Below are positions 4,370 through 30,260 of a stretch of 64,000 bases of DNA, one piece after another (position 1 is the first letter of the stretch; every line of letters begins with the position of its first letter). The position numbers and the translations under genes are program-made. Origin of the DNA: Morchella semilibera. Taxonomy: Eukaryota > Ascomycota > Pezizomycetes > Pezizales > Morchellaceae. The stretch covers positions 3,224,001 through 3,288,000 of the forward strand of contig CM018604.1 in the NCBI GenBank assembly GCA_009192285.1, written 5' to 3'. The notes under the pieces were generated by a model that had not been told where the DNA came from, searched no databases, and saw only the letters and a list, made by a program, of their open reading frames with translations.

Positions 4370-7300
4370 ATGGGTGATGCGGGGGCAGCGCAACTAATGG
4401 CTAAGTTCGCTAAGGCGCACTTCCTCGCAGAGTGTGAGAAAGGTATGCTGTTCTTAAAACTAGGGATAGTACAGTCAACATATGAAATACTAATCTTGTG
4501 AGTAGTGGTCATAGGAAGAGAATTTCAGGAAGTCGTAGAATCTTCTAAGGCTGAAGCTCGCGTGGGTACATGCTATCGTATCATTAACAAATACGCTGCC
4601 GAGAAGCTGCTGGGGCTACCAGAGAAGTCACAATGGGCCTACTTGCATCCGAGAGATATTGATATTTTCAACTCGATAGTGCTGGGTGATGGGAAGCAAG
4701 ACTTCCCAGGGTCTCTAACGGATAATCTACAAATTAAGTATACTTGGTTGTATATCTTGATAGCTGACGCAGTTCTTGCATTTCCCGGACTCGAAGAGAC
4801 CTGCGACGAAGAGCAGCGTAAGTTGTTTGAAGGGTTAGCATCGACGCAGGAACAACAGGCCAATGGTTTGATAAAACAGTGGGATATTCAAGCATATGGT
4901 CATATGTGGATGGGCCATCTTCAAGGACCAAACGCGGCGGAGAAAAGTTTCCCTCAAGAACTTTATAAGGATATCTTGCAACGCTACTGTGCTTTTAGAA
5001 AGCAAATTGAGGAGGAGGACAAAAAAGGTCTTGAATATTTGGATCAGTGGATGCGAGAGTTCATAAGACTATACAAGGAGCCAAGGGCCGAAATCCAATG
5101 CTTCAATATTTGGTCACTAATCCATAGGACCGGGGATGAATATCACCAGGATGATGTAGTCCAGGCGTGGTCCAAATGTATCAATGAATTTCGCCATGAC
5201 AAAGTATGTATCGGAAAGATGGAGCATACAATTGATGGAATAATTGCAAGGCTTCAGGTTGGGAGGGTGAACATTTGGAAGGAAGTCAAATCAACCTCCT
5301 GGACCAGCAACCATGGCTCGATGAGAGAACAGAAAAGATTGTTTATTCAGTGTTGCCACATCATGGCTGACCTAAAGCTGCGCCAAAAAATGCGTGCTCA
5401 TGGGGAGCAGAGAGAGTTTAACGAACAGGACTTGTATGCGTTAGCCAAGCTACGAGAGGATTCGATAGCAGCTGGCTTGGCCGAAAAAGCGCTCTTAGGA
5501 TATTCTGGAAATCCTATTAATGTCTGGTTTGACGTGCTCATGCGCCACATACAATATGAACGGGTGTGCTCTGGATATACATTCAACTGGATTCAACATT
5601 GCTCAGAAATGAATCCTTTCGATTTTTTGGTCTTGGGTTCAATGTATTATCATGATGATCCAAAGGATTATTCAACTGATGACATATACAAAAACATTGG
5701 TTTATTCCTTGTTAAGCTCAAAGCTTTTGGGAAACGAAGGATGTCGAAGAGGAAAAAAGGGAAAGATGCGGCAAAGGGAGACTTGGCAACGAAATCTGAT
5801 GTGAGTGGAGGCAACAAAAAATATTCAAGTTCCGAGCAACTTTCCAAGACCCATGAGGGCAAAGGGGAGGTGGATATATCGAGTGGTTCTATTGAACAAG
5901 ATAGCTCAGCCCGGAAAAGTACGCTGGATAGGGCGGCGAAAGAGTATAGTACAGCCGCGGACTCTGGAGAGGTAGGCGTGAGTCTTCGTGCATACGCTCC
6001 CGGAGCGTCGAATAAAGAACATATTTTGAACAGAATGATGAGAGGAATGTCGCAACAAGATAACCATTTTGACAGAAAAGAGTGGGGTAGCTCTGGGTCT
6101 GCTAAGGAATTAGACGAGCCTCACTCGGAGCCAGAAGATTCTCCACTGGCACCAGAAACGCCTTCCGCATCAGAAATATCTGCATCTGTATTAGGAAGAA
6201 GTGATTTAGGGCCAGAAATGCCGACTGCGGTATCACAAACACCTACTCTAGAGTCAGAGGCGTCCCCCATACCCCAATCGTCTGTTCTGGCACCAGAGCC
6301 CCCGCCTGTACTAGGGTTGTCCTCTCTGGGGTCGAGTACGGTTTCCCCGGTATCAGAAAGGTCTCTACCGAGATCAAGAAGGCCTACTTCGACATCGGAG
6401 ACCCCGCCGGTGTCGGAATCACCACCTTCGGCAGCAGAAGTGCCTGCCTCCGTGTCAGAAATACATGGCCCTGTCTTCAAAACTTCTGCTCTGGCTTTGG
6501 GGACTTCCACTCCATCACCAGAGGGGCGTTCTCTGAAACCAGAAACGCCACCTGTGTCGGAACAATCTTCTCAAACATTAGGGCGGTCGTCTTTGGTATT
6601 AGAAACATCTGCCACAGAATTGGAAGGGCCTTCTCCGGCACTAAAAACTCCTTCCATGTCGGATGCGCCTGGTCTGGAGCCAGAAAGGTCTACTCCCACA
6701 TCAGAGACACCTACAGTGTCAAACAAGTTGACTCTGGGGTTGGAAGAGTCCATTATAGTATCTGAGTTGTCTCCTGCGGGGATATCCCCGGCCCTGGAAA
6801 GGCCTTCCCCGGTTTCCGCGGCACTCGACCCAGCTCGCGTATCAAAAAGAAGTTCTATACCCATATTGAACGCGAACAATCAGACTATTCACAGGACCTT
6901 AAATGGAGTCAGCACTAACAAGGAGAATGCTTCGGGAGAGGGAGTGCAATATTTAGTCACCAATCTTCGACCTAGAGACCATTACGCATCCTTGAACCCT
7001 AGGGGTGGTACCCAAATCGCAAGGAAATCCCAAATCGACCAAAATCTCAGAGAAAACGTTAATCCAGCGACAACAAAAGAAAACCTTCAAGGTGTGCCAC
7101 CAGCAGGAAAGGAACGTCTTGAGAAGTGCAAGAACGAATGTGACTGTTTAAATTGTGGTACTGGGTTAGAAATGGTAAATAGCCCCGGACCCTTCATATC
7201 AATTAAGACAAATCATGATATCGCCGATACAGCTGTTGGACACCCAAGCGACTTATCGATCACAGCACCAGTTATTCCGGGCGCTGAACATACATTAAAA

Positions 7301-7606
7301 GATCATTCCCTCGAATTGGCGGGTAGGGGAAATGAGAAATTCATGTCTACTACGAGGAATGTAGAAGTCCCAGTCCTTTCAGGAACTATGGTCGACCTCA
7401 ATTATATTGTGGATCTTGGCAAAGAGATTTACAAGGACGATCGGGTAGATACTCAATCACAAGAAGGACTAGCCACGACAACACCTAAGAGTGATAGGGC
7501 AAGGGACAATGACAGGTTAATAAGACCACGTCATGTCCAAATTGATGCTAAGGGGAGGGTGCTTCAGAAGGAACTGAAGAGGAATACGTTGGTTATATTC
7601 AGTTGA
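4370..7606 (+). CDS. Large orphan protein, two exons, about 1,057 residues
   Basis: Function not recognised. The model joins exon 1 (4370-4442, starting ATG GGT GAT after an A-rich leader) to a long exon starting at 4506. The 63-nt intron has GTATGC at 4443, an ACTAAT branch and a TAG acceptor, and the phase matches (1/1). The AG at 4501-4502 would also keep the frame and add one residue. The first 430 or so residues look like a folded helical domain rich in Trp, Tyr and Cys. A basic stretch follows (KRRMSKRKKGKD). Then comes a 250-residue region of imperfect short Pro/Ser/Thr/Glu repeats built around P-x-S-E-x, and a charged C-terminal part with a CKNECDCLNC cluster. The frame stops at TGA 7604-7606 but continues open beyond it (next entry). 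Probably a lineage-restricted gene. Confidence 0.75.
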
Positions 7607-14507: not shown

Positions 14508-15689
14508 GGGTTCAGTATGTAGTGACAGATCCCCAACGCCGGAAAACTCTGTTTACGGCGCCTGGGTTAGATAAAAAAAACCCAAGAAGAGGGGGAGCAA
14601 GTTGGACTATCCATACCTCTCGTAGCAGCTAACTGTTTCGTTTGTTCAACCGCCTCCACTTTTCGGCGGGGGCAGGGTGTGACTAGCTACCCTGTGGTTG
14701 CGACAAGCAGATAGCGGCGACCAGGTCCTCGGTGTGCGTGTGGGGTGCAGCAAGTGGTAAGAGCCATAGATCTGTCGCAAACTCGATGGGGGGGGGGGGG
14801 CGATCACATATCGCGCCCTATCGTGCAGTCAGCCTATGCGTGTTCTGGCGGGGTAGGGGTATATAGTTCAGCAGGTGGGATGTACATACCGCGATGCAAT
14901 CGACACACATGGGCTGTAATAGAGGGGGAGACTGGCATCAAAATTCTGTTGGTGACTGGCTGTCGTAGCGGGGGTCATCATGGGTGGGGAGGCACACAGT
15001 TGCGTCTGTTGTCTCGTGCCAAGACTCGCTGCATCGAGCTTCTAGTGAAGACTCTGAATAGCGTCTTTTATCCACACTGAAGTCTCGGAAGTTGAAAGAT
15101 GGATTTCGAGGCCAAATAACCGGGAGTCGTATGCATAGCTAAACGGGCAGCGCAACCCTGGAAAGCCTGACAGATCATATGTCTAAAATTCAGGGTTAGG
15201 TCTTTTCATGTAAATATCCTGGTAGTTTTTCCTCGGCTACAACTTTCGAGTGTGGGACAAAGACTCTAATACCTACTTGAACATATGGTGATTGCATACA
15301 ACTTGCTATGTACTCCTAGATACGAAAATAGAGACCTTGCATACTTGATACAGCAGGAGAGGAGTTTGTGGTGGAATTGTCGGTGGGGCCAGCTTTTCCT
15401 AGTGCCAGTAGTAACCCTGACCCTGACCCTGACCCTCCTGCAGTTCCACCACGCGTTATACCCACGATAGTGGTGGTTACATGTATGAATTAAGATTTTT
15501 TTGATCATTAAGAAATCTGTGTATTAGAAAGATGCTCATCAGAGAAAAAGTTCTAGAGCGCACACAGAATTGTCACAGAGAATTTATTTTTGTTGCGACA
15601 AAATACATAGCGAAACACAAATAATGATTTCATAGAGACACCTAAGAACGATCAAAGGCAAGAAGACAAAGAACTAAGAGTTATCTAAA
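14508..15689. other. Intergenic, no gene seen
   Basis: No gene. It holds a G-run at about 14787-14798, a variant telomere-like tract (CCCTGA repeats, 15411-15438) and an A-rich stretch from 15660 that would be the 3' flank of the hairpin locus on the minus strand, including AATAAA (minus) at 15700-15695. Confidence 0.45.
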
Positions 15690-15832
15690 AAAAATTTATT
15701 CTAACTAAAAATAAAAAAAAACAAAAGAAAAACAAAAGAAAAACTAACTAAAACAAAAAAGAACTAACTAAAAATTAAAAAAAAAAACCCCCCAAGATTC
15801 CTCCTCTTTACCGGTTTTCCTCCTCTTGAAGT

Positions 15833-15863
15833 CTCTTGGTGTCCCAGCTAGGGACACCAAGAG
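15833..15863. repeat. Hairpin, 13-bp arms
   Basis: CTCTTGGTGTCCC pairs perfectly with GGGACACCAAGAG around a 5-nt loop. It is the last strong hairpin at the 3' end of the locus and could help define the transcript end. Confidence 0.8.
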
Positions 15864-16108
15864 CAAAGCACCACCGACCCCCTTGGTTTGTGTGGGGGTG
15901 GTAGCTCCGAGGTTCCCATCGACCGAGGGTGTCCCGTTGGGACTGACCGCTCGGGAGGAAGTCCTCGGAGCATGGTAGTGCGGTGGTGTGGTGGTAGGTG
16001 GTGCACCCCGCGCGCGACAAGACCCGAGGTCTTGTGCCTGCCGAGATCGGTACAGGCTGGTGGTAGTGGTGGTGGTGGCGCGGGGTGCTGGCTCGAGCGC
16101 TCAGCTCG

Positions 16109-16165
16109 ATGGTAGTGGTAGTGGTAGTGGTAGTGGTAGTGGTAGTGATGGTGGTGGTGGTGGTG
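16109..16165. repeat. GGTAGT microsatellite
   Basis: About six GGTAGT units followed by GGT repeats. Similar GGT tracts occur at 18867-18911, 19285-19350 and near 20610-20655 in the same locus. Confidence 0.85.
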
Positions 16166-16367
16166 TTTGTTGGCCTCGGTGGCCCTTGTGGCTGCTGCGT
16201 TGCAGCGTAGCCGACGACGTAAGGGCCCAACCAGATCTCCATGTCTGGTTGGCCATCTCGAGGCGTGATGATGGTGGTGATGGTGATGATGATGGTGGTA
16301 GTGGTAGTGGTGTCCCGGGTCCGCCAGTCGGGACTTTGGTGATGGCAGTTGGGAAGGACATCCGGGA

Positions 16368-16422
16368 CCTCGCATCATATGCGAGGGTTTTGGTAGCTGA
16401 GCTCCGCTGGTTGGGAGCTCAG
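16368..16422. repeat. Two adjacent hairpins
   Basis: CCTCGCAT/ATGCGAGG with a 3-nt loop (16368-16386) and CTGAGCTCC/GGAGCTCAG with an 8-nt loop (16397-16422) stand 10 nt apart with unrelated stem sequences. Confidence 0.8.
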
Positions 16423-16529
16423 TGCCTTTACAGACTGTGCTGTAAGGTCTTGTTGTCCCTATATTTCTGTGAATTGTTAGACAAGAAGAACATGTAAATA
16501 TTAGAATCGAGAAGAACTTACCTTTTTTC

Positions 16530-16760
16530 ACCCCTTGGGGTAACAACCATTTCTTGCCCAGCAAGGCAAGACAAAACCACTTCTGTCACCCAATGGTGAC
16601 TCTTCTGCAGGCCCCAAAGGCCACAGAAACTCTCTCTCGCCCAGTGGCGACTCTCCCTCTCTTCTGACCCAAAGGCCAGAAACCCCACTCGCCTCTCAGG
16701 CGACCTCATCCTCTCTCGCCTTCTCGGCGACTCCATCCTCTCTCTCGCCTCCATGGCGAG
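16530..16760. repeat. Hairpin array A1
   Basis: About nine hairpins in a row with pyrimidine-rich spacers. Stems include ACCCC/GGGGT, CTTGCC/GGCAAG, GTCACC/GGTGAC, GGCC/GGCC, TCGCC/GGCGA (several), and CTCGCC/GGCGAG. Loops of 0-6 nt differ freely while the arms stay complementary. Confidence 0.8.
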
Positions 16761-17090
16761 CTCATCCCCTCCACCCTCTCCTCTCCTCTCTCCTCTCTCC
16801 CCTCACCCCCTCTCCCGGCCACTCCACTCCTGGCCACTCCACTCCACTCCACTCCACTCCCCCTCTCCTCTCCTCACCCCCTCTCCTCTCCTCACCCCCT
16901 CTCCTCTCCTCACCCCCTCACCTCCTCACCCCCTCACCCCTCACCCCCTCACCCCCTCACCCCCTCACCCCCTCACCCCCTCACCCCCTCACCCCCTCAC
17001 CCCCTCACCCCCTCACCCCCTCACCCCCTCACCCTCTCTCCTCTCCTCTCCTCTCCTCTCCTCTCCTCTCCTCTCCTCTCCTCTCCTCTG
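16761..17090. repeat. CT/CCCTCA low-complexity tract
   Basis: CTCTCC, CCACTCCA and CCCCTCA repeats, changing to a pure CTCTC run at the right end. On the minus (transcribed) strand this is G-rich and could form quadruplexes. Confidence 0.85.
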
Positions 17091-18392
17091 GGATGGCTCA
17101 TCACACCACCCCCCGCCAGACCCACCCGCGATACCGCACGGGGCGACCCGGGTAGTCCGATGATCGACTACCAGGTGAAAACAAACTAACAAGTCGGTAT
17201 AGTTAGCATCTCCCAAAGGTTAAGACTTACCTGGCCATTGCGCTCAGTTGGGAGATTTCTCCCTCTCCTCTCCCTTCGGGCATCTCAAGGTCAGAGGGGG
17301 TCTGACAACTCCAACTCCGGGCCATAATACCGGTTCAACCCAGGACTCTCCAGGAGTATCTCCCGGGAGGACACAGACGGCACGGAAGGTATCCATCAGG
17401 CGGGCTTCTAGGCATTTTCGAGATGGCGGTCTCTTAGCTTATCAGTTATGATAGCTAGCCATTCCTTGAAGGACATGGACTTTTGCACACAATGTGTGAG
17501 AACAGGGAGCTTGTCCTTCCTTGTTCTTTTTGGTGGTGGTGGTAGTGGTAATGTATGTGGTGGTGGGGGTTTCGGGAGTACCAGGGGCCATAAGCCCCCG
17601 GGGTACCCGGTATTTCTAGCAGCAGATAATTAGCCTGATACAAATACGCTTTTTTTTGGAGAGGAGGGAGTGGAAGTGGGGGAACGTTGTGGGATTGGTG
17701 AAACAGAAAGCGTAGGGAATAGACAGACCTTTTGATTTTGTCGCTGCTGGCTTTTTGAATCCGGTAGCCCATAGGCTGACCGGCGGAGACGGCATAACCT
17801 GCCACCATGTTAGCCTGTTACAAGATAAGACCTTTTTTTGAAGTCTGAATGGCAGTGAAGGAAAGTAGAGGAAAAGTAAACAGAAAGGTAGGAAAGGAGT
17901 AATACTGACCGCTCATCTAAACAGTGTTCACTGTTTAAGAACAAGGAAGGGAGGAGAAAGGAAAAGTTTCTGGTGTTTGAGAGACCGCCAAGTCTCTCTG
18001 CCCAGAATGCCCGCCGAGGACTCGCTGTCCTTATGCCGTCTGCTGAGGTCCTCCCTAAGGAGAACTCAACCTTTGAGCCCTGAATGGGTCTCCCCGCTAC
18101 TTCTGGCCTTTCGGCAGAATTGTCTCGCCCCCCCAGTTCCCCTCAATGCCCTAAGGAGAGGATCGTTCGATCACTCCCCATGCCCGACTTGAAGTCAGGC
18201 GGGCGACTAGGCCAGGCTTGCCAGCTCCTCTGAGAGGTGCCGACCACACCGACCAGTCCGTAAGCTCTCTCCCCCCCATATCCTGGAAATCCAAGACACG
18301 GGGGAGCCCAACCACAACGTGCGGTATCTCCCAAGAGCAGCAAGCTGCCCCCCGAAGTACCCCGTCCTCTCCGCCTTTCCTCCTCTTCTCTC

Positions 18393-18679
18393 TCGCCCCA
18401 CGGGCGACACTCCTCTCTCGCCCCACGGGCGACTCTCCTCTCTTGCCCATTGGGCAAGTCTCCTCTCTCTTGCCCACAGGGCAACAGACTCTCTCTCGCC
18501 CCTCGGGCGACTCTCTCTCATGCCCCTCAGGCATCACTCTCTCTCGCCCCTCGGGCGACTGACTCTTGCCCTCGGGCAAAAGCTTCTCTCTCGCCCACTG
18601 GGCGGCTCTCTCTCATGCCCCTCGGGCATCACTCTCTCTCTTGCCCCTCGGGCAAAAGACTTCTCTCGCTTCTCGGAGA
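18393..18679. repeat. Hairpin array A2 with stem switching
   Basis: Twelve hairpins, each about 15 nt, spaced by CTCTCT-like linkers. Stems fall into three versions that differ by paired changes: TCGCCC/GGGCGA, TTGCCC/GGGCAA and ATGCCC/GGGCAT. Almost every change in one arm is matched in the other. Loops are two or three bases. This is the clearest covariation in the window. Confidence 0.85.
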
Positions 18680-18866
18680 GACTCCCACTGTCTCCCGGTC
18701 GGCGGTGCTCTCTCGCCCCAAAGGGCGGAAACCATTTCTAGCCCTCGCGGGCGGAGACTCTCGCGAGTCCCAGGCGTCGAGACGCCTTCGCGCATCTTGT
18801 GCGCGGGTCTTTTTTTGGCCTCGAGGCCAGCTCCAGTCTCTGGAAGAGAGACGCCAGACTGGAGCT

Positions 18867-18911
18867 TAGGTGGTGGTGGTGGTGGTGGTGGTGGTGGTGG
18901 TTGTGGTGGGG
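18867..18911. repeat. GGT microsatellite
   Basis: Uninterrupted GGT units, then a few variants, inside an exon of the hairpin locus. Confidence 0.85.
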
Positions 18912-19194
18912 TCCGGAGTACCGGAGGTCTTGGAAATTCCAAGATCCCCTCTACCTATGGTCGTAGAGGGGTCGGCCAGCAGGAGAATCGGGCCTTGCGG
19001 CCAGGGTGGTGAGGCCGCTTGGTGTATGGAATAAGGGTTCCAACGGGGAACCCTTATTCTCGAAATCAGAAACGCCCCCAACGGAGTTGGGAGCGTTCTG
19101 TTCTCCCCCCGAAGTCATTGGGGGGAGCCAGAAAGACCTGTTGGCCTGTGGTTTTTGGGAATGCCGAACCTGTGTTCGACATTCCCATCGGGTT

Positions 19195-19225
19195 CCGGTA
19201 GTAGTTCTTGACGAACTACTACCGG
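19195..19225. repeat. Hairpin, 13-bp arms
   Basis: CCGGTAGTAGTTC pairs with GAACTACTACCGG around TTGAC. A neighbour at 19157-19186 (GGGAATG...CATTCCC) has one mismatch. Confidence 0.8.
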
Positions 19226-19748
19226 TATCCCGCCGGTTTGGGGGGGCGGGAAACCGCCACCTCGCTGGTTAGGAGTAACCAGCAAAGGTGACGGTGGTGG
19301 TGGTGGTGGTTTTAGTGGTGGTGGTGGTGGTGTTGGTGGTGTTGGTGGTGATGGCCATATGGCCCCGAATTGTGATGGATAGAGAGCCACAAGGGCTCTC
19401 ATATCCGATCCAACAGCCCATGTGGTTATTGCACCGCGGTGCAAGAACCTGAGCAGAGAGGATCTCCTATATAAAGGTGAGTTAGAATAAAAGTAGTTAC
19501 TAGAAGTTTTAGGGGCGAGACTTACTGCTCTGATATCACCATCCCCGGCAGGGGATGGGATTTTAGCAGACGAAGTCATTGACTTCGCCGCCAACCAGCC
19601 CAGAAGGTGCAGCAGCAGAGAGACTACTGCACCAAGGCCTCTGGGGCCAGTTTCTAGGATGCCTAGCTGAGAAAGATGTTAGTATGAGAATAGATGTTAG
19701 GATTTCCGCAGGGTGACTTACCATCCAAATGTCAACATAGATTGACAT

Positions 19749-19789
19749 AAGGAAAACGGTAAAGGGAATGACCCTTTACCGTTTTCCTT
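19749..19789. repeat. Longest hairpin, 18-bp arms
   Basis: AAGGAAAACGGTAAAGGG pairs perfectly with the arm at 19772-19789 around a 5-nt loop. It lies in the exon just upstream (in transcription order) of the 19667-19721 intron. Confidence 0.85.
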
Positions 19790-19919
19790 CCCACTTTCCC
19801 ATTTCCTCCTCTTTCTTTTTTTTTTTTTATCTTTTTTTTTTTTTTTTTTTCGGGGCGGGGAGAGGGCAAAAGCCCATTCCCTTCGGAGGCCTAGGCCTCA
19901 CCCATATTTTTTTTTTCGA

Positions 19920-19995
19920 CAGTAGCCACGGCAGTGGCTACTGGACTTCCGACACGGTAGTCGGGAAAGCCTCCTCATCCGGCAGGATGAGGAGG
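19920..19995. repeat. Two hairpins with GGCA loops
   Basis: CAGTAGCCAC/GTGGCTACTG (19920-19943) and CCTCCTCATCC/GGATGAGGAGG (19970-19995). Both have the same GGCA loop although the stems are unrelated. Confidence 0.8.
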
Positions 19996-20130
19996 GGAAG
20001 GAGGTTGTTGGTGGCGGAGAGCAGAGGTCTGCGCTCGATCCGCGGGAGGTTTTGGTGGGCGGGGCGGGCGGGCCGACAGGATGTCGACCATTGTGGTGCT
20101 CCGCTTGGGGCCCAGTGGTGTTGGGACAGA

Positions 20131-20157
20131 TGGAAATGATCGCAATGATCATTTCCA
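20131..20157. repeat. Hairpin, 11-bp arms
   Basis: TGGAAATGATC/GATCATTTCCA with loop GCAAT. More follow: 20230-20256 and 20383-20405 (GAGACTGTCT/AGACAGTCTC). Confidence 0.8.
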
Positions 20158-20983
20158 CTGTAGGCAGCCCGAGGGCTGCGCGGTGGTGGTGGAGGTGGAG
20201 GTGGAGACGGCGGACGGTCTCGGGCGAGCTGGGGACAGTATCACCTCGCGGTGATATGTCCCGCGGTGGTGTTGCCCATTGTTGCTTCCCTTTCTGGAGA
20301 AGGGCGCTGGTGGTTGCCGGTGGTGGTGGCGGTCCAGTCTTGTCCGCAAGAGCTGGCGTTGGGGGGGGGGGGGTTGGTCCTTGAGACTGTCTAGTAGACA
20401 GTCTCGACCTCGGAGGAAGTGGCGGTGGTGGTGCCCTCAGGTGTCTGCAGCAGGCAGACCCCCGAGCATCGGTATCGCGGCGGTATGGGGGCCGGGCCGA
20501 TCTGGTATGTGGTGGAGGTGGTGGTGGAGGAGGAGGCGGGGGCTGTCCTGGTAGACAGCTATCCTCTTGTCGACGGAGCCCTTAGCCTTGGGCCCGCACA
20601 ACAAGAACGATATGTGGTGGTGGTGGTGGTGGAGAGGAGGTGGAGATGGTGGTGGGCGGAGTTGTAGGGGGCCAGTCCGCGGCGGCGCAAGGTTTTCCGA
20701 ACAGCCCGTGGGGCTGTTTGTCTCTGCCTGAGACGCAGGCACAGAGACGGTTGGAGGAGGGGGAGGGAAGCTCTCGGCGGCTTCTTTCTTGCAGTGTCGT
20801 GAGGCGGGGACACAGCACAGGTCGTTCTCAGACAACCTAAAGGTACCTGTAATTAACTTGTTAGCATATTACTCAACGCACTATGAAAGGATATAAAAGG
20901 AAAGGAGTAAGAAGATAACCTACCAGTTTAACTGGTGCCACTCTCTGGTCAGCAATAACCGGATTGCTCCACCCACGCCGCCC

Positions 20984-23709
20984 CCAGATGCACCTCCATG
21001 CGGTCTGGGGTCGCGGGTCGGAGCGCCGGAGTTGACTTTGATGGGTGCCACCCAATCCAAATGCACCTACATGCGGTAAGGAGAGGGGCACCAGAGGCTC
21101 TACCCACGTCGCCCTCAGATGCATCTCTATGCGGTCTGAGGTCGCGGGCCAGAGCGTCGGAGTTGCCGTTTTGACTCGAGTGCGGCCCCGATCTAGATGC
21201 ACCTCCATGCGGTCTAGAAAGGGTGCACCAGGGCCCTCCCCACGGCGCCCCAAGATGCACCACTGTGCGGTCAAGGGGGGTGGGTCTGAACCCCGGAGTC
21301 GTTGAATTTTTGAGTGCTGTCCCCAATTCAGATGCACCTACATGCGGTCTGAACCAGGGAGCACTGGCTTCTCCTAGAACCCTAGATAAAGTCAGTCAAA
21401 GTTAACTTCAAAGAAAGGAATAAGAAGACAAACTTACCAGTCCAGCTGGTTCTAGTCTCCAACGCCGAAGTGGTGGGGCCGGATGCCAGACCACTGGGGC
21501 GGTGCCGGGCGCCTCTCCCCACGACGCCCCTAGATGCACCGCTGTGCGGTCTAGGGTGGTGGGTCTGAGTGCCGGAGTTGATCTTAACGGGTGCCACCCA
21601 ATCCAAATGCACCTACATGCGGTTCAGAGAGGGGGCACCACGGGCTCTACCTACGTCGCCCTCAGATGCATCTCTATGCGGTCTGAGGTCGCAGGCCAGA
21701 GCGTCGGAGTTGTCGTTTGACTCGGGTGCGGCCCCGATCTAGATGCACCTCCATGCGGTCTAGAAAGGGTGCACCAGGGCCCTCCCCACGGCGCCCCAAG
21801 ATGCACCACTGTGCGGTCAAGGGGGGTGGGTCTGAGCCCCGGAGTCGTTGATTGTTTGTTCCCAGTGCTTCCCGATCCAGATGCACCTCCGTGCGGTCTG
21901 AAAAGGGGGCACCTCCAGAGCCCTCCCCACGGCGCCCCAAGATGCACCGCTGTGCGGTCGAGGGGGGTGGGTCTGAGCCCCGGAGTGGTTTGGTTCCAGT
22001 GCTTCCCGATCAAGATGCACCTACGTGCGGTCTAGAAAGGGGCACCAGAGTTCTCCTAGAACCCTATATATCAATGTCAGTCAGTGTTGGTTCCAAAGAT
22101 AGTAATGAGAAGACAACTTACCAGACGAGCTGGTCCTAGTCTCCAACGCCAAAGTGGTGGGGCCGGATGCCAGACCACTAAGGCAGCTACCGGACGCCTC
22201 TCCCCACCTAGCCCCTAGATGCACCGCTGTGCGGTCTAGGGTGGTTGGTCTGAGTGCCGGAGCCTTCTTGTCCCTGTGCCACCCGATCCAGATGCACCTC
22301 CATGCGGTCTGAAAAGGGGGCACCTCCAGAGCCCTCCCCACGACGCCCCAAGATGCACCGCTGTGCGGTCGAGGGGGGTGGGTCTGAGCCCCGGAGTGGT
22401 TTGTTCCAGTGCGGTCCTATCTAGATGCACCTCCATGCGGTCTAGACAGGGGCACCAGAGTTCCTCTACCGATCTGAATATCGTTAGAAAAGGCTATCTT
22501 CAAGAAAAAAATAAGGAAGAAAGGGAAAACTTACCAGTCTGGCTGGTCTCTCTATCTAGGGCTGAACTGGAGGGGCCTCCTCCCACGTCGCCCCCAGATG
22601 CACCTCCATGCGGTCTGGGGTCGTGGGTCTGAGTGCCGGAGATGTCTATTTGGTGCGGCCCAATCCCAGATGCACCACTGTGCGGTCTGAAAAGGGGCCC
22701 ACCCGAGCCCTCCTCACGAAGACCCCAGATGCATCGCTATGCGGTCCGGGGCCGTGAGTCTGAGCGCCGTAGATATCTGTTCCAGTGTGTCCCACTCCAG
22801 ATGCACCTACATGCGGTCTGAAGTGGGGACACCGGGTTTTCCCTACCATTCTAAATATCAAAGGTCAGACAAGATTATTTTTTTAAAAGAAAAAGAAAGT
22901 AGAGAGATAACTTACCAGCCCTGCTACTTCTCCTCTCCAACGCCATTTGGCTCCGGGTTCCTCCACCCACGACGCCCCCAGATGCACCTCCATGCGGTCT
23001 GGGGTCGTGGGTCGGAGCGCCGGGGTTCTCTGTTCCAGTGCGGTCCTATCTAGATGCACCTCCATGCGGTCTAGACAGGGGCACCAGAGTTCCTCTACCG
23101 ATCTGAATATCGTTAGATAAAGCTATCTTCAAGGAAAAGAAGGAAGAAAGAGGACAACTTACCAGTCTGTCTGGTCTCTCTATCTAGGGCTGAACTGGAG
23201 GGGCCTCCTCCCACGTCGCCCCCAGATGCACCTACATGCGGTCTGGGGTCGTGGGTCTGAGTGCCGGAGATGTCTATTAGGTGCGGCCCAATCCCAGATG
23301 CACCACTGTGCGGTCTGAAAAGGGGCCCACCCGAGCCCTCCTCACGAAAACCCCAGATGCATCGCTATGCGGTCCGGGGCCGTGAGTCTGAGCGTCGTAG
23401 ATATCTGTTCCAGTGCGGTCCCACTCCAGATGCACCTACATGCCGGTCTGAAGCGGGGACACCGGGTTTTCCCTACCATTCTAAATATCAAAGGTTAGAC
23501 AAGATTGTTTATTTTTAAAAGAAAAAGAAAGCAGAGAGATAACTTACCAGCCCTGCTACTCCTCATCTCCAACGCCATTCGGCTCCGGGTTCCTCCACCC
23601 ACGACGCCCCTAGATGCACCTACATGCGGTCTAGGGTCGTGGGTCGGAGCGCCGGGGTTCTCTGTCCCAGTGCGGTCCCAATCCAGATGCACCTACATGC
23701 GGTCTGAAA
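20984..23709. repeat. Hairpin array B, 30 copies of a TGCA-GCGGT unit
   Basis: Thirty copies of a roughly 23-nt core, GATGCACCTCCATGCGGTC and variants, spread over eight exons. The inner stem is GCAC/GTGC or GCAT/ATGC, varying together (about half keep a C-A mismatch). The outer arms also change in pairs: CCAGA/TCTGG, CTAGA/TCTAG, CTCAGA/TCTGAG, TTCAGA/TCTGAA, CCCCAGA/TCCGGGG. Between cores are shared phrases such as CCGGAG and GGGGGCACC. Larger exon-plus-intron blocks are duplicated: 22474-23102 resembles 23103-23736. Confidence 0.85.
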
Positions 23710-23967
23710 AGGGGGCACCAGAGTCCACCAACCAACCTAAACATTGAAAGTTAGTCAAAGTTATTTTTCAAAACAGGTAAAGGTGAAAGCAGAGAGAGAC
23801 ACTTACCAACGAATCCTCCAAAACAAACCAGCCCCCCACTCACCCTCCCTCCTCCACACTCCCATCCCCCAAAGATGGCCTGACCCCACCCAGACCACCT
23901 AGTCCTCCTACGAGGGACTAGGCATCGGGGTCGTTGGGGTCGACCACCCTTCTCTCCACGCTGACCG

Positions 23968-26676
23968 TCATACGGACCGGTCCGCTAGCCACCACTGGGG
24001 GCGGCAAGGAGTTGTTTTGGGGGGTGGAGCCCTCCCGCCAGATGAGAACTGGCTCATGTCTGGAGGAGCCGCGCTAGCTAGCCTAGGCGCGACAACCTCG
24101 TACATTCTCGCCGTCTCGTTGGCGTCGGCAAATAGTGCCAGGGCTCCACGCAGGGCGGAAGTGCGGGTTCGGGCGGGGTGAGGTTCGCCGGAGCGTCGGG
24201 GAGGCTGCTGCCTCTGTTGCTGATGCTGCTGCTGCTGTTGCGTGCGCACAAGCGGCACCACTGGCATGGCGGGGGCGGGACTGTTGGAGATGGTGGCATC
24301 GGCCTCGCCCATCTCAACATCTGCCTCCCCCGAGTAGGTCATTGCCAGCGGTGCTGCTGGCGGGACTGCGGCAACCTGGGCCATCTGGGACGGCCAAGCA
24401 TCCTCCATCAGGACATCGCTGTCCCTCATCTGGAGTGTCCGCCCAACACCCCTGCTGACCCTTGCTCGCTTGGCAGGGCGCTGACGGCCACCCTCCAAGT
24501 TCGGAAGCATGGCAGCTGGCGAGAGTGCGGGCGGACGAGACGCGAGGCGAGCCCATCGGACCCGGTTTTGCTCGCGCAGTCCGGTCTGGCGCCTGCGATA
24601 GGCTGCGAACGGGCGGACCGGGGCGGCGAGGGAAGCGGCGGCGACGGTCGGCGCAGGAGCAGGAGGCTTTGAGGCACAGGCCCCCATGAGGAGGTCCATG
24701 CGCTCTAAGCTCCGCTTCCTGAGGTTGGCGGCGGGAGCAGGGCGCGTGGCGACGGCAGCGGCAGCGACAGGGGAGGCGAGGATTGGAGCAGGCGGGTCTG
24801 GGGTCGGGGGCACCAGCCTGTCGAGGATGGCGTCCAGGTCTCGGTCGGGCCGAAGACCACGCACCGCGCGGGATCTTGCGGGAGGGCGTGCGGTGGTCTG
24901 CGGCGCTGGCGCTGACGGCGGGGCCTCGCCCATCTCCATGCCCCTGTTGACAACCATTGCGGCCGGTTGCCTGGCAACTACATCTGTCACCGTCCCAGCA
25001 GGGAAAGCGGTGACAACCGCAGCGGGCACCGGCGCAGGGGGGTTGTGGTTGCCAACTGGAACCTGGGTGGCGGCGGCCCGTAGTCCTGGCATCCGGATGA
25101 CCGCGATCCTCTCCGGGACGAATCCGTTGGTTGGTCGGCGGGGCGCGCCTGGTGTCAGTACAGGTGCGGGTGCGGGTGTGGTTGGTGCGGGGACCGGTGC
25201 GGGTGCAGCTTCTGGTGCTGATGCTGGTGCGGGACTGGCCGCCTGACGAACCGCCACTGGCACAACGGACACAGCGGCGGGAGCGAGCACAGGAGCAGGG
25301 ACAGCAGGAGCGGGGACAGAAGGAGCAGCGAGGGTGATGGCGCGCAACGCCAGCAGTACTTCGTCGACAGTACTGCCGGGGGCGGGATCAACGGCTGCGG
25401 GCACGGCGGGGGTCCAGGGCAGCAAACCCACTGCTGGTGTGGCGGCGGCCTCGGGAACGGCGGCGGCTACAACTATAGCAGTTGCAGGTGCACCGGTACT
25501 GACACCGGCGGCGGGGTGAGTGACACGGGCACTCGTGGCGGCAGCTGCGACGGGGACGGCAGCTGCGGCGGCGGTAGGGCGGCCAGACGCGAGAGACACA
25601 CGGGGAGGCGACCGGGGGAGAGGAATTGCACGTGGTAGCCTTGCAGCTACCTCGTCCTCACCGAGGCTTAATGCTCGCGAACGAGCGGGGGCACTAGCCT
25701 GCACCGGCCTTGCGGCCGGGTCACTCCTAGCAGGAGCTCCAGAGACGGAAGGAGCAACCGCCGCAGTGTCTACCGAGCTTACGGCCTGACTTCCTGCGGA
25801 GCTACTCTCTCCGCTCCTTTGCTGCCTACCAGGCAGACCGTTTGTAAGGCGCATGAGGAGTTCCTCATGCTCTCTGACATCACCACTGATGGCCAGATAG
25901 TGCTCCCATGCCTTTGCCTGATGGTTGGTCAGGGCAGATATAAAGCCGGTGAGGCTCTCGATGGTCCATGGGACCTGGTCGTTCTCGCGGGGGTCTTGCG
26001 GGGCTTGAAAGCAGACCCCGGTTGTTGCCTCGCGGCGTTCGGCCACCCTACGGCGGGGTGGGGATTGGCAGGGGTCCTGCTGAGTCTCTTCGGGAACAGA
26101 GACAGCAGCGGGCACTGCGGTTGAGCGGAAGGAGGTGGAGGCGGCGAAGGGAAAGGGGGTGGCCGACCGAGCTGCCTCACCAAGCAACACACCCTCGCGG
26201 GTGGCGGGCTCTGCAGCTGACGAGGTCGACCGTGGGGAAGGGGGGGGAAGGAGGGGGGAACGGGAACGGGAACGGGAACGGGAAGGGAAGAAGACGGGGG
26301 ACCTATCGGCCTGGCCAAGCAAGGGCTCTACGGCTTTCAAGGCCCTCGTCGGGGCGGCACTTGCAAACCCAGCTGCCTGGCCAAGCAACACACCCTCGCG
26401 GGTGGCGGGCACTGCAGATCTGGAGGTCGGCGTGGTGTCGGTAGCGGCGGGGGGGGGGGGACTGCGGCGGCGGTAGGCGCGACGGGTGTCGACAACTCCG
26501 GTGGCGGTGGAAGCGGCGGTGGACCGAACCGTCTGGCCAAGCAACACACCCTCGCGGGTGGCGGGCTCTACGGTCCTGGAGGTCCTCCTCCTTCTCGGCG
26601 TCGTCATCGTCGGTGTCGTCCTCGTCGTCCTAATCGCGGCGGCGGAAGCGGGGTGGGGTTGCTCAGACCCAGACAT
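23968..26676 (-). CDS. Pro/Ala/Ser-rich 902-residue protein with a TREGVLLG repeat
   Basis: Single open frame from ATG at 26676. Function not recognised. The N-terminal 170 residues carry three copies of PATREGVLLG(Q/E), at about residues 38-48, 90-100 and 157-167, a shortened one at 117-122, and an SR-dipeptide run at 132-140. One likely folded segment lies near 225-285 (PWTIESLTGFISALTNHQ, then AWEHYLAISGDVREHEELL). The rest is Ala/Pro/Val low complexity. The DNA repeat behind TREGVLLG contains the palindrome CACCCTCGCGGGTG. Other perfect hairpins lie inside the frame at 24985-25015, 25353-25376 and 25851-25870. The frame is GC-rich, so a long open frame is easier by chance, but the peptide repeat argues that it is translated. 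It ends 161 bp before the first intron donor of the hairpin locus on the same strand. Confidence 0.6.
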   Translation of the reverse strand: MSGSEQPHPASAAAIRTTRTTPTMTTPRRRRTSRTVEPATREGVLLGQTVRSTAASTATGVVDTRRAYRRRSPPPPAATDTTPTSRSAVPATREGVLLGQAAGFASAAPTRALKAVEPLLGQADRSPVFFPSRSRSRSRSPLLPPPSPRSTSSAAEPATREGVLLGEAARSATPFPFAASTSFRSTAVPAAVSVPEETQQDPCQSPPRRRVAERREATTGVCFQAPQDPRENDQVPWTIESLTGFISALTNHQAKAWEHYLAISGDVREHEELLMRLTNGLPGRQQRSGESSSAGSQAVSSVDTAAVAPSVSGAPARSDPAARPVQASAPARSRALSLGEDEVAARLPRAIPLPRSPPRVSLASGRPTAAAAAVPVAAAATSARVTHPAAGVSTGAPATAIVVAAAVPEAAATPAVGLLPWTPAVPAAVDPAPGSTVDEVLLALRAITLAAPSVPAPAVPAPVLAPAAVSVVPVAVRQAASPAPASAPEAAPAPVPAPTTPAPAPVLTPGAPRRPTNGFVPERIAVIRMPGLRAAATQVPVGNHNPPAPVPAAVVTAFPAGTVTDVVARQPAAMVVNRGMEMGEAPPSAPAPQTTARPPARSRAVRGLRPDRDLDAILDRLVPPTPDPPAPILASPVAAAAVATRPAPAANLRKRSLERMDLLMGACASKPPAPAPTVAAASLAAPVRPFAAYRRRQTGLREQNRVRWARLASRPPALSPAAMLPNLEGGRQRPAKRARVSRGVGRTLQMRDSDVLMEDAWPSQMAQVAAVPPAAPLAMTYSGEADVEMGEADATISNSPAPAMPVVPLVRTQQQQQHQQQRQQPPRRSGEPHPARTRTSALRGALALFADANETARMYEVVAPRLASAAPPDMSQFSSGGRAPPPKTTPCRPQWWLADRSV

Positions 26677-28491
26677 TAGGATGGTATGCGGTGGTATTTG
26701 ATAATGAATTAAAATTCGATTATAATATGCACTTTATACGATCAGAATGAACTGGGGGAGAAAAAGGAGGGAGAGGGGAAACGTCAAGATGGGCGTGGGT
26801 GGTGGTGCGGGGTCCCCTAGGACTGGGTAACTCAACTTTTCGCCTGTTTGGGAAGAACGTCAAAAAAAAAACAGTGGCGCCAGGACAACAATCGCTACTA
26901 CATTGTGTGTACTATGCATTTATTGCACATTTACACGGGGTATTATTATGGGAATTTACAGAGGCTATAGTCTTTAGGAGAGGTTATGGACGTGGGTTTT
27001 TTCTCATGGGCACTGGCATGGGCAGATGGATTGATATTCAGCTGCCTGTGTATATATACAGTCTTATTTACTAATTATTTACTCTGGGTATCTACAGGGC
27101 GGATGTGGGCTATGATGTGGGCATTTATTTTGGATTCACAGAGTGTTGGTGTTGATGTTTGTTTTGGCGGGGGCGGATGGATATTCTGCTAAGTACAAAA
27201 ACACCATGTCACAGCTGCAACAAACAGCGGTAGGGGATATCACAGGTACTCTCTATTCTCTATATATCTAATATGTAGTAGCAATTGAATTAAATCAGCA
27301 CAGCTGTATTATTTATCAGACCTCAAAGTCCATACACGCAGCAGCAGCAGCAGCTACAAATACACCCCCTTCACACACAATACCCCAACAAAACCAATCC
27401 AGTCCCCAGCCCACGCACGCACAAATGTACAGAATCTGTTGTGGGGACCCCAGCGTGACTGCTTTTCTGGCGCTACCCGTGAGTTCTGGAGTTGATGGTT
27501 GGGTGTGGGTAGCGGGGTGTGTTTGTTGGGGAGGCGGGGGTTGCTGTGGTGAGCGCGGGTTGTGGTGCAGCCTGGATATTTGGTCTTCACGCAACACTGG
27601 CTATGTTCTCTACACTGTTGCTACTGCTACTGTCGCTGTCCCACACCGACACTGCTGCTCTGCAGCAACGTCCACAGCCACTCACACTGCTCTCACACAC
27701 CACACTGCGCCCCGCCCCAAGTGAGCCCACAGCAACAAATGTACATAGTGTATAACCCCCCAGCCAGCCTCAAATACACACCACTAGATAACTGTACAGC
27801 CCATCTCTCCACCAACCCTAACCCCCAAACCCACCCGCACCACCACCATCCCATGCAAGCTGAAAACACCACTCCCCACCCTGTAAGCCACGCCACAAGT
27901 GCCCCCGAGAACGGGGGCTGCGCCGTTCCCACGCGGCGTGTACCGGTAGGGCGGTCATTGACCTGTCGTTGCGTGCGGGCGCTAGTGGCTTGGCGCGGCG
28001 GGGCGGGGCGGGGTGGGGTTGCACTAGATTGTGTTGCGGTGTAATTCTCTGCACATAGGTTTCTTGTACACAGCGCACAGGGGAATGGAAAGAGTTGCAC
28101 CATGCTGTACAACCCGTGTTCCTATTGTTGCAACACCCCCCGGGGTGCGGGGGTGCTCACCACACCCACCGCAGTGTTGCAACAGCCTCCCCTAACCCTG
28201 CCGCCTCATGTGCACCCCCAACAAGTGAACCACAGCAGGTAACAAAGGTAAATAAAGGTCACACGAACCCCGCGGCACAGGCCATCACTCGCGGCACAGA
28301 CTCTCACTCGCCGCGGTGGGCGGTCACGTGACTACGCTATGAGCTTGTCGCCCGAAGCAGAGTGTTGGAAATATATAGACTTTGTTTTTGGCGGGTGGTA
28401 TTTACAGGTGAGGATAAAAGAAAAAGGAAGCAGCAGACCAGCGGGGGCCCTGGGTTGTCTAAGTACATGTATGTAATAGTCCTGATCGAAG

Positions 28492-28511
28492 ACTAACCCT
28501 AACCCTGACCC
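28492..28511. promoter_or_regulatory. Telomere-like box
   Basis: CTAACCCTAACCCTGACCC, two perfect units and one variant. No gene start lies close by. Confidence 0.4.
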
Positions 28512-30260
28512 GGCTGGTAGGATTGTGGTAAAGGCGCGCGGTGTATATACTAGCTGGCCCACCAACCAGCCTTGGCGATGTCTAATGATCCGGACTGTAG
28601 GCGTCTGGAGTGTGTGGGGTCGACTATATACTGTACAGAGCTGGGTCTCGGTGGCTTGACGCGCCTGCGTGCAGGAGGCTTGTTTTATTCTTGTCTGTGG
28701 GTCGATCCCATGAGTTAAGGCCCCAGCGATGTAGCCATATGTAGCCCGCTGCCAGACCCTGACCAGTGCGGTCTGTGGATGGCGGTACGGACGTAACGGC
28801 TGGAATGTGCTTAAGTTACCTTATACCTGCTGGCCAGAGCCTCTGTTTATCAGCTCCCCCTTTCCCGCCCAGTCATGTACTTTTTGAAACAGGGTCATGA
28901 CTCCCTAGGCTATTGTTATTTCTGTTCCTTTTCCATATGATACAACAGTAATCGGTCACGCCAATGGGCTGATATAATATAAATGACCAATATCTGAAGT
29001 AGCCGTACTAACAGATAACATCACCTCCCTTCTACCAGTACTAACCTAGCCCTTCAGTGGCGGGTTGCATACACTCTATGCTCGTTGTCAGAGTTGTCAG
29101 GATCAATGGGGGTGGTTTTTTTGCAAAAATGTGTGCCGACCTAGGGTTACGTTGTATCAAAAACCAATATGGTCTAGATACATGTAGTACCTATATAGAT
29201 TGATGGTCCCAACCAGTAAACTACCAAGCTAGCAGACGTAGCAACATAAGTAGGTCTCGACCACAGTACAGCACGATGTTGCGGCCAAAAGCGGGGGGGG
29301 GGGGACGGTAGAGCGTACGATCGACGTTGTAATCTAAGGTACCAAAAATAACCAGAAACCAGCCTCGCAACAAAGTGCAAAATTAACCGGGTACCGCGTC
29401 GAAACCAAATTTTGTATGGGAAAGCAACTTCAACATCGACTACACCACAACCAAAACAGATAAATGTATGAGATTTCATCTTTGGTGTTCTCTATACTCA
29501 TACTACCATATACTCCAACGTGGACTCAACTAAAGCAATTTGAAAACTCGGTTATTGTAGCCCATTTGCATGGTGCAACGTGAGCGTCCGGTTAATTTTG
29601 CGAACCCACAGCAAATTTTGAAAGTACCGCCACCTTGAGCGCGCACAAAAACCCTAGACCATATAACTATATCGGATCACAGAACTGAAGTCCCTTGTCT
29701 CATTTGTGGTGTAAAGCGATGTTGAAGCTGCATGCATTCCCATACAAATTTTGGTTACAGCGAACATTTTGACAACCTGCCATAGCAGCAACGCGTACAA
29801 CCGCCCCGCACGCAGCATGATGTCGGTGTATGCGTGTGGAGCTGTCTCCAGGCCCTGCACACATGCGCCCTGATCGGGGGTGGGTTGAGGTATATCGACG
29901 TTGGGGTTTAATTGCTAGCTAGCTACCTGTGTGGGTGTGTACTGTTTGGTTACCGGGTTTTTGGAGGATGGGTTTTCCTCACTAGGTATGTTATATAGGC
30001 TGCATTCCCACAGGTTGGGAATGTGTATATACGGTCGTCCAATTTCTTCCCTAGTTGCACATCTACACCCCACCTACCGGCTGTTTGACGACCCATTGAC
30101 CGGGCTATAGATAGCTACGGTCAGAGGATGTCTAACACAACCCCATCTACCACCACCACAACGCACCCCCAGCCGGAAACAAGACCAACTAAGCATACAC
30201 CGGACCTAGCCAGCCACACCGCCCGGCTGTGCGCGGGGAAGAAAAAGATACTTAGCGCAA

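Follow-up and report, generated by a model that had tools for sequence, protein, structure and literature searches.

Introduction

Clear structural selection has seldom been shown for long RNAs. Xist, NEAT1 and NORAD are repeat-containing architectural lncRNAs, and the morel locus described here resembles them in carrying many copies of a short module per RNA, which is suggestive of multivalent binding; it differs in using a covarying hairpin as its module and in having a second part of mostly unique hairpins. Hairpin RNA and pre-miRNA clusters likewise place tandem hairpins on one transcript, whereas the morel stems are too short for such precursors and their conserved part is apical. Orthologs of the Drosophila RNAs roX1 and roX2 were found through focal and repeated RNA structures, according to the accessible part of that report (PMC4719309). 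Like them, the morel locus would be a long RNA with repeated stem-loops as protein platforms, a role that we propose for it, and its array shows tandem stem-loops under structural constraint, as judged by covariation. It belongs to another kingdom and has far more hairpins, twelve introns and a possible linkage to a coding sequence; our best guess is that the likeness to roX may lie in its working only, and we do not class it as roX, a class defined by binding to MLE/MSL proteins and by dosage compensation. Coding palindromes, with many perfect inverted repeats within genes, have been described from the mitochondria of Nematomorpha (PMC6649704). Such abundance within genes is shared by the morel locus, whereas the nematomorph repeats, in the accessible part of that paper, lie in mitochondrial protein-coding genes and those of the morel are nuclear, strand-biased and located in spliced exons that contain no long frame.

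The locus lies within a 64,000-nucleotide stretch of Morchella semilibera DNA (contig CM018604.1; hereafter the window). With a probability of roughly 45%, we read it as a spliced structured RNA that would serve as a multivalent protein-binding scaffold and most probably forms the 3' part of a single transcription unit. We know of no fungal RNA of this build, and the available text of the open-licence literature among the matches listed (morel lncRNA or small RNA, fungal hairpin lncRNA, template switching) describes no such locus.

Results

Predicted spliced layout of the locus

The structured locus occupies 15690-23967 on the minus strand and combines twelve consensus introns with hairpin-rich exons, leaving ~7.5 kb after splicing. 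A strict scan, combining four strong donor hexamers with a branch point and an acceptor, found 11 introns on the minus strand, spanning 16467-23806, and one plus-strand candidate in the region. A looser scan, which gave many weak candidates besides, added 17230-17186 on the minus strand. The adopted set (n = 12, 45-77 nt) bears out the twelve well-formed introns in one orientation that a sequence-only reading of this DNA had claimed. Introns 1 to 3 lie at 23737-23806 (with a second possible donor in the strict scan), 23481-23547 and 23103-23162; introns 4 and 5 at 22851-22915 and 22474-22534 (95% identical to intron 2 and 92% to intron 3, respectively); introns 6 and 7 at 22064-22121 and 21382-21437 (82% identical to each other); introns 8 to 10 at 20847-20923, 19667-19721 and 19467-19525; intron 11, from the looser scan, at 17186-17230; and intron 12 at 16467-16521, all on the minus strand.

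A single frame across the spliced exons was looked for and was absent. Between stops, the longest frame measures 299 aa; it sits in a purine microsatellite and falls inside the range of 40 shuffles, which reach 319, in agreement with the earlier claim that the exons share no reading frame. CTAACCC, CCCTAAC and AACCCTA, which would mark a telomerase RNA template complementary to TTAGGG, are all absent from the spliced region. The locus is presumably transcribed, and as one single transcript.

An array of covarying hairpins in the 5' part

The hairpin array (20988-23703, minus strand) holds 30 copies of ACC-GCAY-NNNG-RTGC-A, with introns interrupting it. Two hairpin types, A and B, alternate with a period of ~135 nt. 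One motif copy has an additional G. An invariant apical part, consisting of a GCA...TGC stem and a CC/A internal loop, sits atop variable yet paired stems, a pattern that would be expected of a protein-binding site. The locus also contains tandem duplications of ~630 nt. Between these duplicates, one exon pair diverged by 2.2% versus 4.6-8.5% in adjacent introns and another exon pair by 10%; given this mixed picture, slower exon divergence was dropped as evidence.

Both-side changes were found in 6 pairs and 13 cells of the B hairpins (reached by 1 and 0 of 500 shuffles, respectively) and in 4 pairs and 7 cells of the A hairpins (10 and 1 of 500); the copies are related by duplication, and these cells are not independent of each other. 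Slid controls of both types were all lower in cells paired and in covariation score, with one slid A version retaining 6 both-side cells versus 7 in the true alignment. Further pair types in the array stems showed no excess over shuffles in any of three counts. G-U occupied 49 cells in 13 pairs, versus 3 cells in 2 pairs for A-C.

Unique hairpins in the 3' part

Mostly unique hairpins, spaced by CCA-type or purine (GAGA) linkers, fill the remaining ~5 kb (15690-20846, minus strand). They include ten tandem mini-hairpins with GAGA linkers at 18390-18690 and a second block of eight with purine linkers at 16520-16790, both on the minus strand. A swap test on these 18 hairpins gave 0/10000, a value that is partly circular, since pairing was used for picking and G-U was permitted. 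In the 3' part, G-U outnumbered A-C by 3-4 to 1 under stricter rules, and by 4 to 2 when two mismatches were permitted; these counts are small and not significant. Local stems with the array included gave a ratio of 15 to 6 when the threshold was loosest, and stricter thresholds gave 10 to 4 and 4 to 3. This local-stem excess, not significant alone, was set aside as evidence, the sense/antisense folding comparison below being the better test.

By a rule requiring perfect stems of at least 8 bp with loops of 3-15, 18 stems were counted in 15690-20846 (34.9 per 10 kb) and 1 in 20847-23967. The same rule gave 0-11 per 10-kb control stretch of the genome (44 in total, mean 2.6) in 17 stretches, of which 16 were taken at a fixed position and one was picked for a motif match, and among which two pairs resemble each other. 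The hairpin density first reported for the whole locus is upheld for the 3' part. With one mismatch tolerated, the spliced 7550 nt contained 33 stems with at least eight Watson-Crick pairs versus 4-12 in 8 dinucleotide shuffles, and 92 with at least six versus 60-78. The description of the exons as almost wholly perfect inverted repeats was overstated: the six-pair stems account for 27% of the spliced sequence (14-18% in four stretches elsewhere in the window), the minimum free energy (MFE) fold pairs 62% of its bases, and the hairpins arrayed in the 5' third are imperfect and share a conserved internal loop. Within each of the 12 introns the longest perfect stem is 3-5 bp, and 29% of 300 exon pieces of similar size hold one of at least 6.

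Six of the 12 splice junctions fell inside a chosen stem in a first listing. Re-formation of hairpins across junctions was rejected as a general rule, because tests with swapped exon ends were mostly not significant: p was 0.59 in one, 0.10-0.70 in another that combined five window sizes with two representative sets, and 0.13, 0.11 and 0.03 at three thresholds in a third, with 2 of 9 intron families. Good individual junction stems occur at introns 6, 7 and 10; at intron 10, splicing would join the halves of a perfect 9-bp stem closed by a 3-nt loop.

A long open frame adjoining the hairpins

A 902-aa frame at 23968-26676 (minus strand), missed by the sequence-only reading, is a probable coding sequence of the same transcription unit, and its stop codon (23970-23968) adjoins the hairpin locus directly. 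It spans 921 open codons, versus at most 455 in 300 shuffles, is single-copy in the genome, and encodes 20% Ala, 14% Pro and 10% Arg with three PATREGVLLG[QE] repeats; no Pfam or PDB match exceeded the cut-off. From 15000 to 27000 the minus strand holds a single TATAAA (26733-26738), which is a candidate promoter, and the sole AATAAA in the 3'-region exons (15695-15700, minus) is a candidate poly(A) signal. Another AATAAA lies at 15588. A long interrupted hairpin (23871-23951, minus; 34 predicted pairs) starts 17 nt past the stop codon.

Since the frame abuts the locus, with the sole TATAAA before it and the sole exonic AATAAA at the far end, the hairpin locus may be a giant 3' part of the mRNA of this frame. 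The label of non-coding locus would then be wrong in one respect: the hairpins would belong to the 3' UTR of an mRNA that encodes a protein. Twelve introns past a stop codon normally invite nonsense-mediated decay, so the frame and the hairpin part may instead be separate transcripts. If they are joined, the structure might act only in cis, where it would govern how stable the 902-aa mRNA is, how it is translated or localised, or whether it escapes decay, with no scaffolding in trans. The onset of structure so near the stop codon and the single TATAAA and exonic AATAAA bracketing the whole unit fit such a 3' UTR, but its size and 30 motif copies go beyond what we would expect of a cis element and the single transcript is itself presumptive; we hold this explanation to be somewhat unlikely.

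Strand-specific folding points to selection on the RNA

Paired sense/antisense comparison showed stronger folding of the sense strand in the array (z -1.73 vs -0.86, p 0.0004) and in the 3' part (z -3.54 vs -2.41, p 0.0006), and no difference in 80 control windows of the genome (p 0.88). In the 902-aa frame, folding did not differ significantly between the strands and the mean z was only -0.54, so the hairpin design does not seem to extend past the stop codon into the frame. Covariation, the large excess of G-U over A-C in the array, sense-strand folding and introns without stems above 5 bp argue for selection on the transcript rather than on DNA palindromes. The locus thus points to a selected, structured RNA without a match to a known family.

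Structured RNA, small-RNA source and palindrome hotspot had been offered earlier as three options. The first is supported by covariation, by wobble pairs biased to one strand and by folding that is likewise strand-specific, and these data disfavour the last. Under the hotspot reading, template switching during replication would make or correct perfect inverted repeats, and transcription would be incidental. Many 3'-part stems are perfect and, by eye, show no sequence relationship to one another, which is the outcome that template switching would produce; microsatellites are plentiful, and template-switch correction could imitate covariation. We would expect such palindromes to show no preference for strand or exon, whereas the locus shows both, and neither the wobble excess nor the confinement of the tested parts to this locus is explained. 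We consider the hotspot improbable as an account of the present locus, although the raw hairpins may have arisen through it.

A precursor of small RNAs, as a milRNA or hairpin-RNA cluster, is considerably more doubtful. The B hairpins (~55 nt, ~20 pairs) resemble pre-miRNAs, and loops reading AGNN, the tetraloop signal of Rnt1-type RNase III, occur in 10 of 15 B and 2 of 15 A hairpins. Dicer-length duplexes of ~20 bp or more, as in miRNA or hpRNA precursors, are nearly absent from the one MFE fold: of its 344 predicted helices, 3 are long enough at 20 bp, all with small bulges or mismatches, and the longest uninterrupted one has 18 bp. The invariant part, moreover, is the apical region and not an arm.

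Single copy and database searches

No further genome copies of parts of the locus were found (2443 of 8278 bases queried; simple repeats skipped). A dispersed repeat or MITE was rejected, as the tested parts and patterns occur at this locus only, except for two chance-level matches to GCAYNNRGRTGCATCT, of whose 20 genome matches the other 18 lie here. Rfam gave 0 matches over the gathering score in the whole window, and 3 matches up to E 1 in 15600-26700, all below the cut-off and 2 on the other strand. The neighbourhood is orphan-rich, with nothing above cut-off in Rfam, Pfam and PDB searches. The locus might instead be the remains of a mobile element, or a product of recombination, that kept its introns by chance. 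This would suit the ~630-nt duplications and the orphan-rich setting, but is highly improbable given the lack of a second copy of any tested part and the signs of selection on pairing.

Discussion

Computation shows the intron pattern, the excess of structure, its covariation and strand specificity, and the single copy of the tested parts. On these we build the following model, in which transcription into one RNA, disorder of the protein, binding and function of the hairpin RNA are proposals. One transcription unit would start near 26.7 kb and end near 15.69 kb. Its first part would encode a probably disordered, Arg-containing protein, and the remainder of the transcript would form a ~7.5 kb spliced chain of hairpins spaced by linkers. 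The hairpin RNA could then offer a multivalent platform to numerous copies of a protein, possibly the unit's own product, and the bound platform might build or anchor an RNP or condensate. The fullest form of this model, an undescribed fungal gene class in which a single RNA both encodes a disordered protein and supplies a 7.5-kb spliced hairpin scaffold, with 30 conserved hairpins binding this very protein so that the gene specifies both components of its own RNP body, is unlikely.

Because the repeats are internal, the locus supplies covariation evidence from one single genome. If transcribed, it would offer a test case for how a transcript with twelve introns past a stop codon escapes decay, and a compact natural system for how a multivalent hairpin RNA assembles proteins.

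Gene layout of the locus

All twelve introns of the hairpin locus (minus strand, 15690-23967), each 45-77 nt long, lie 3' of the stop codon of a 902-aa reading frame on the same strand (ATG at 26676, stop at 23970-23968), and a scan for introns with strong donors found none within this frame. The frame stands open for 921 codons, compared with at most 455 in 300 shuffles, and is unlikely to be a chance product. Ala, Pro and Arg are abundant in the frame, which carries three PATREGVLLG repeats, occurs once in the genome (56,756,124 bases in 23 contigs, with the window at C2:3224001-3288000), and showed no match to Pfam models (E 0.01) or PDB chains. A minus-strand TATAAA at 26738 precedes the ATG, with no second one on that strand between 15000 and 27000, and the 3' region has a single exonic AATAAA, at the extreme end of the locus (15700, minus strand; 50 shuffles predict 0.32 exonic copies); a further minus-strand AATAAA lies within intron 2. 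Because the only TATAAA is upstream and the only exonic AATAAA is at the far end, the frame and the hairpin locus would most simply be read as a single transcription unit. The strongest rival to a proposed scaffold role for the hairpins, in which this region would act in cis as a giant 3' UTR, is compatible with that role.

Upstream of the gene, short interstitial TTAGGG-like repeats occur on the minus strand (27800-28530). Across the window (1-64000), a Pfam search of 26 frames gave none over the cut-off and one weak match below it; the frames lacking a Pfam assignment include one of 1034 aa at 4502-7606 and the 902/921-codon frame, and the neighbourhood within the window is orphan-rich.

An array of 30 hairpins under probable selection as minus-strand RNA

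The motif GCA[CT]NNNN[AG]TGCAT occurs in 30 copies on the minus strand between 23703 and 20988, and not once on the plus strand of the window. The copies alternate between an A hairpin (base GGTGC...GCAC) and a B hairpin (base CCCAC...GTGGG). In every one of the 30, including one with an extra G, the GCA/TGC apical stem and the CC opposite A are constant; the lower stem varies. Motif loops are AGNG in 10 of 15 B and 2 of 15 A copies, and GKAG in the remainder (20988-23703); the AGNN form resembles the signal recognised by the yeast RNase III Rnt1. Within the array, a segment of about 630 nt has been duplicated in tandem (22474-23736), together with two introns. The pattern GCAYNNRGRTGCATCT, which fits only part of the 30 copies, has 20 matches in the genome, 18 of them inside the locus; the two outside are no more than the reversed control yields (3), and the 600 bases inspected at one of them contained no array.

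Pairing was retained in 93.9% of cells across all copies (27 distinct rows), 92.4% in the B type (15 rows) and 93.2% in the A type (15 rows; reached by 2/500 shuffles). Both-side changes occurred in 5 pairs (15/500 shuffles) and 23 cells (0/500) across all copies, in 6 pairs (1/500) and 13 cells (0/500) in the B type, and in 4 pairs (10/500) and 7 cells (1/500) in the A type, where one slid version of the pairing scheme gave 6 such cells. The A-type covariation score was reached by 15/500 shuffles, and for further pair types none of the three sets scored above its shuffles. These counts come from copies related to one another, and from pairing schemes drawn by eye from the first rows, with some bias toward standard pairs. 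In the A and B types together, G-U accounted for 49 cells in 13 pairs, A-C for 3 cells in 2 pairs and other mismatches for 38 cells. Since A-C cells are the wobble pairs of the opposite strand and are far fewer than G-U, selection appears to act on the minus-strand RNA of the array.

Unique hairpins, strand bias and introns

Most hairpins of the part at 20846-15690 (minus strand) have stems unrelated to each other by eye, perfect up to 18 bp and with mostly short loops; they are separated by CCA repeats or GAGA runs, and some are nested within larger stems. Two minus-strand blocks of tandem mini-hairpins (18690-18390 and 16790-16520) hold 18 hairpins whose arms vary together, in a test that is partly circular because the hairpins were picked for pairing. 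An 841-base query across the first block found no genomic match other than itself, and all four occurrences of the block's GAGA hairpin pattern are at the locus.

Perfect stems of at least 8 bp number 18 in the 5157 nt of the unique part; 17 control stretches of 10 kb from elsewhere in the genome have 0-11 each. The highest control (C11:1000001-1010000) has 11 scattered hairpins, one of 15 bp. Two pairs of controls at the same position, on contigs C9/C10 and C12/C13, are equal in hairpin count and GC (26% in C12/C13); the C9/C10 stretches share a 10-bp hairpin, the contigs of each pair are nearly equal in size, and they are possibly redundant or haplotype contigs. Of 1209 candidates for a 5.8S-like match in the assembly, 39 were scored and one was reported, at C19:2699587-2699758; it falls below the Rfam cut-off and resembles a degenerate fragment outside rDNA.

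Both strands were folded in 140-nt windows against the same 50 shuffles. Sense z-scores were lower than antisense in the array (-1.73 versus -0.86; lower in 14 of 18 windows; p 0.0004) and in the unique part (-3.54 versus -2.41; lower in 22 of the 34 windows with a defined z; p 0.0006), and an earlier run on different windows gave the same direction. Strands did not differ significantly in the ORF (19 windows, p 0.18) or in genome controls (80 windows taken from stretches elsewhere in the genome, p 0.88). Perfect stems of at least 6 bp were found in none of the 12 introns, compared with 29% of 300 size-matched exon pieces. A mutational process generating palindromes offers no reason for the strand bias or for the sparing of introns.

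Splicing would re-create a hairpin over the junction at introns 6 and 7 (CTAGRACC...GGTTCTAG) and at intron 10 (GAGCAGAGA...TCTCTGCTC). As a general property this was not supported: the junction set did no better than swapped exon ends, with p 0.03 at the strictest of three thresholds alone.

Proposed function

A small-RNA precursor is unlikely judging by helix length, a dispersed repeat judging by the copy number of the parts searched, and a telomerase RNA because the template is missing. The constant internal loop and apical part, borne on exchangeable stems in 30 copies, suggest that the array RNA may be a protein-binding platform. The linkers separating the hairpins would suit a scaffold. 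In mode of working, the closest analogue would be roX RNA (PMC4719309), although we would not class the locus as roX.
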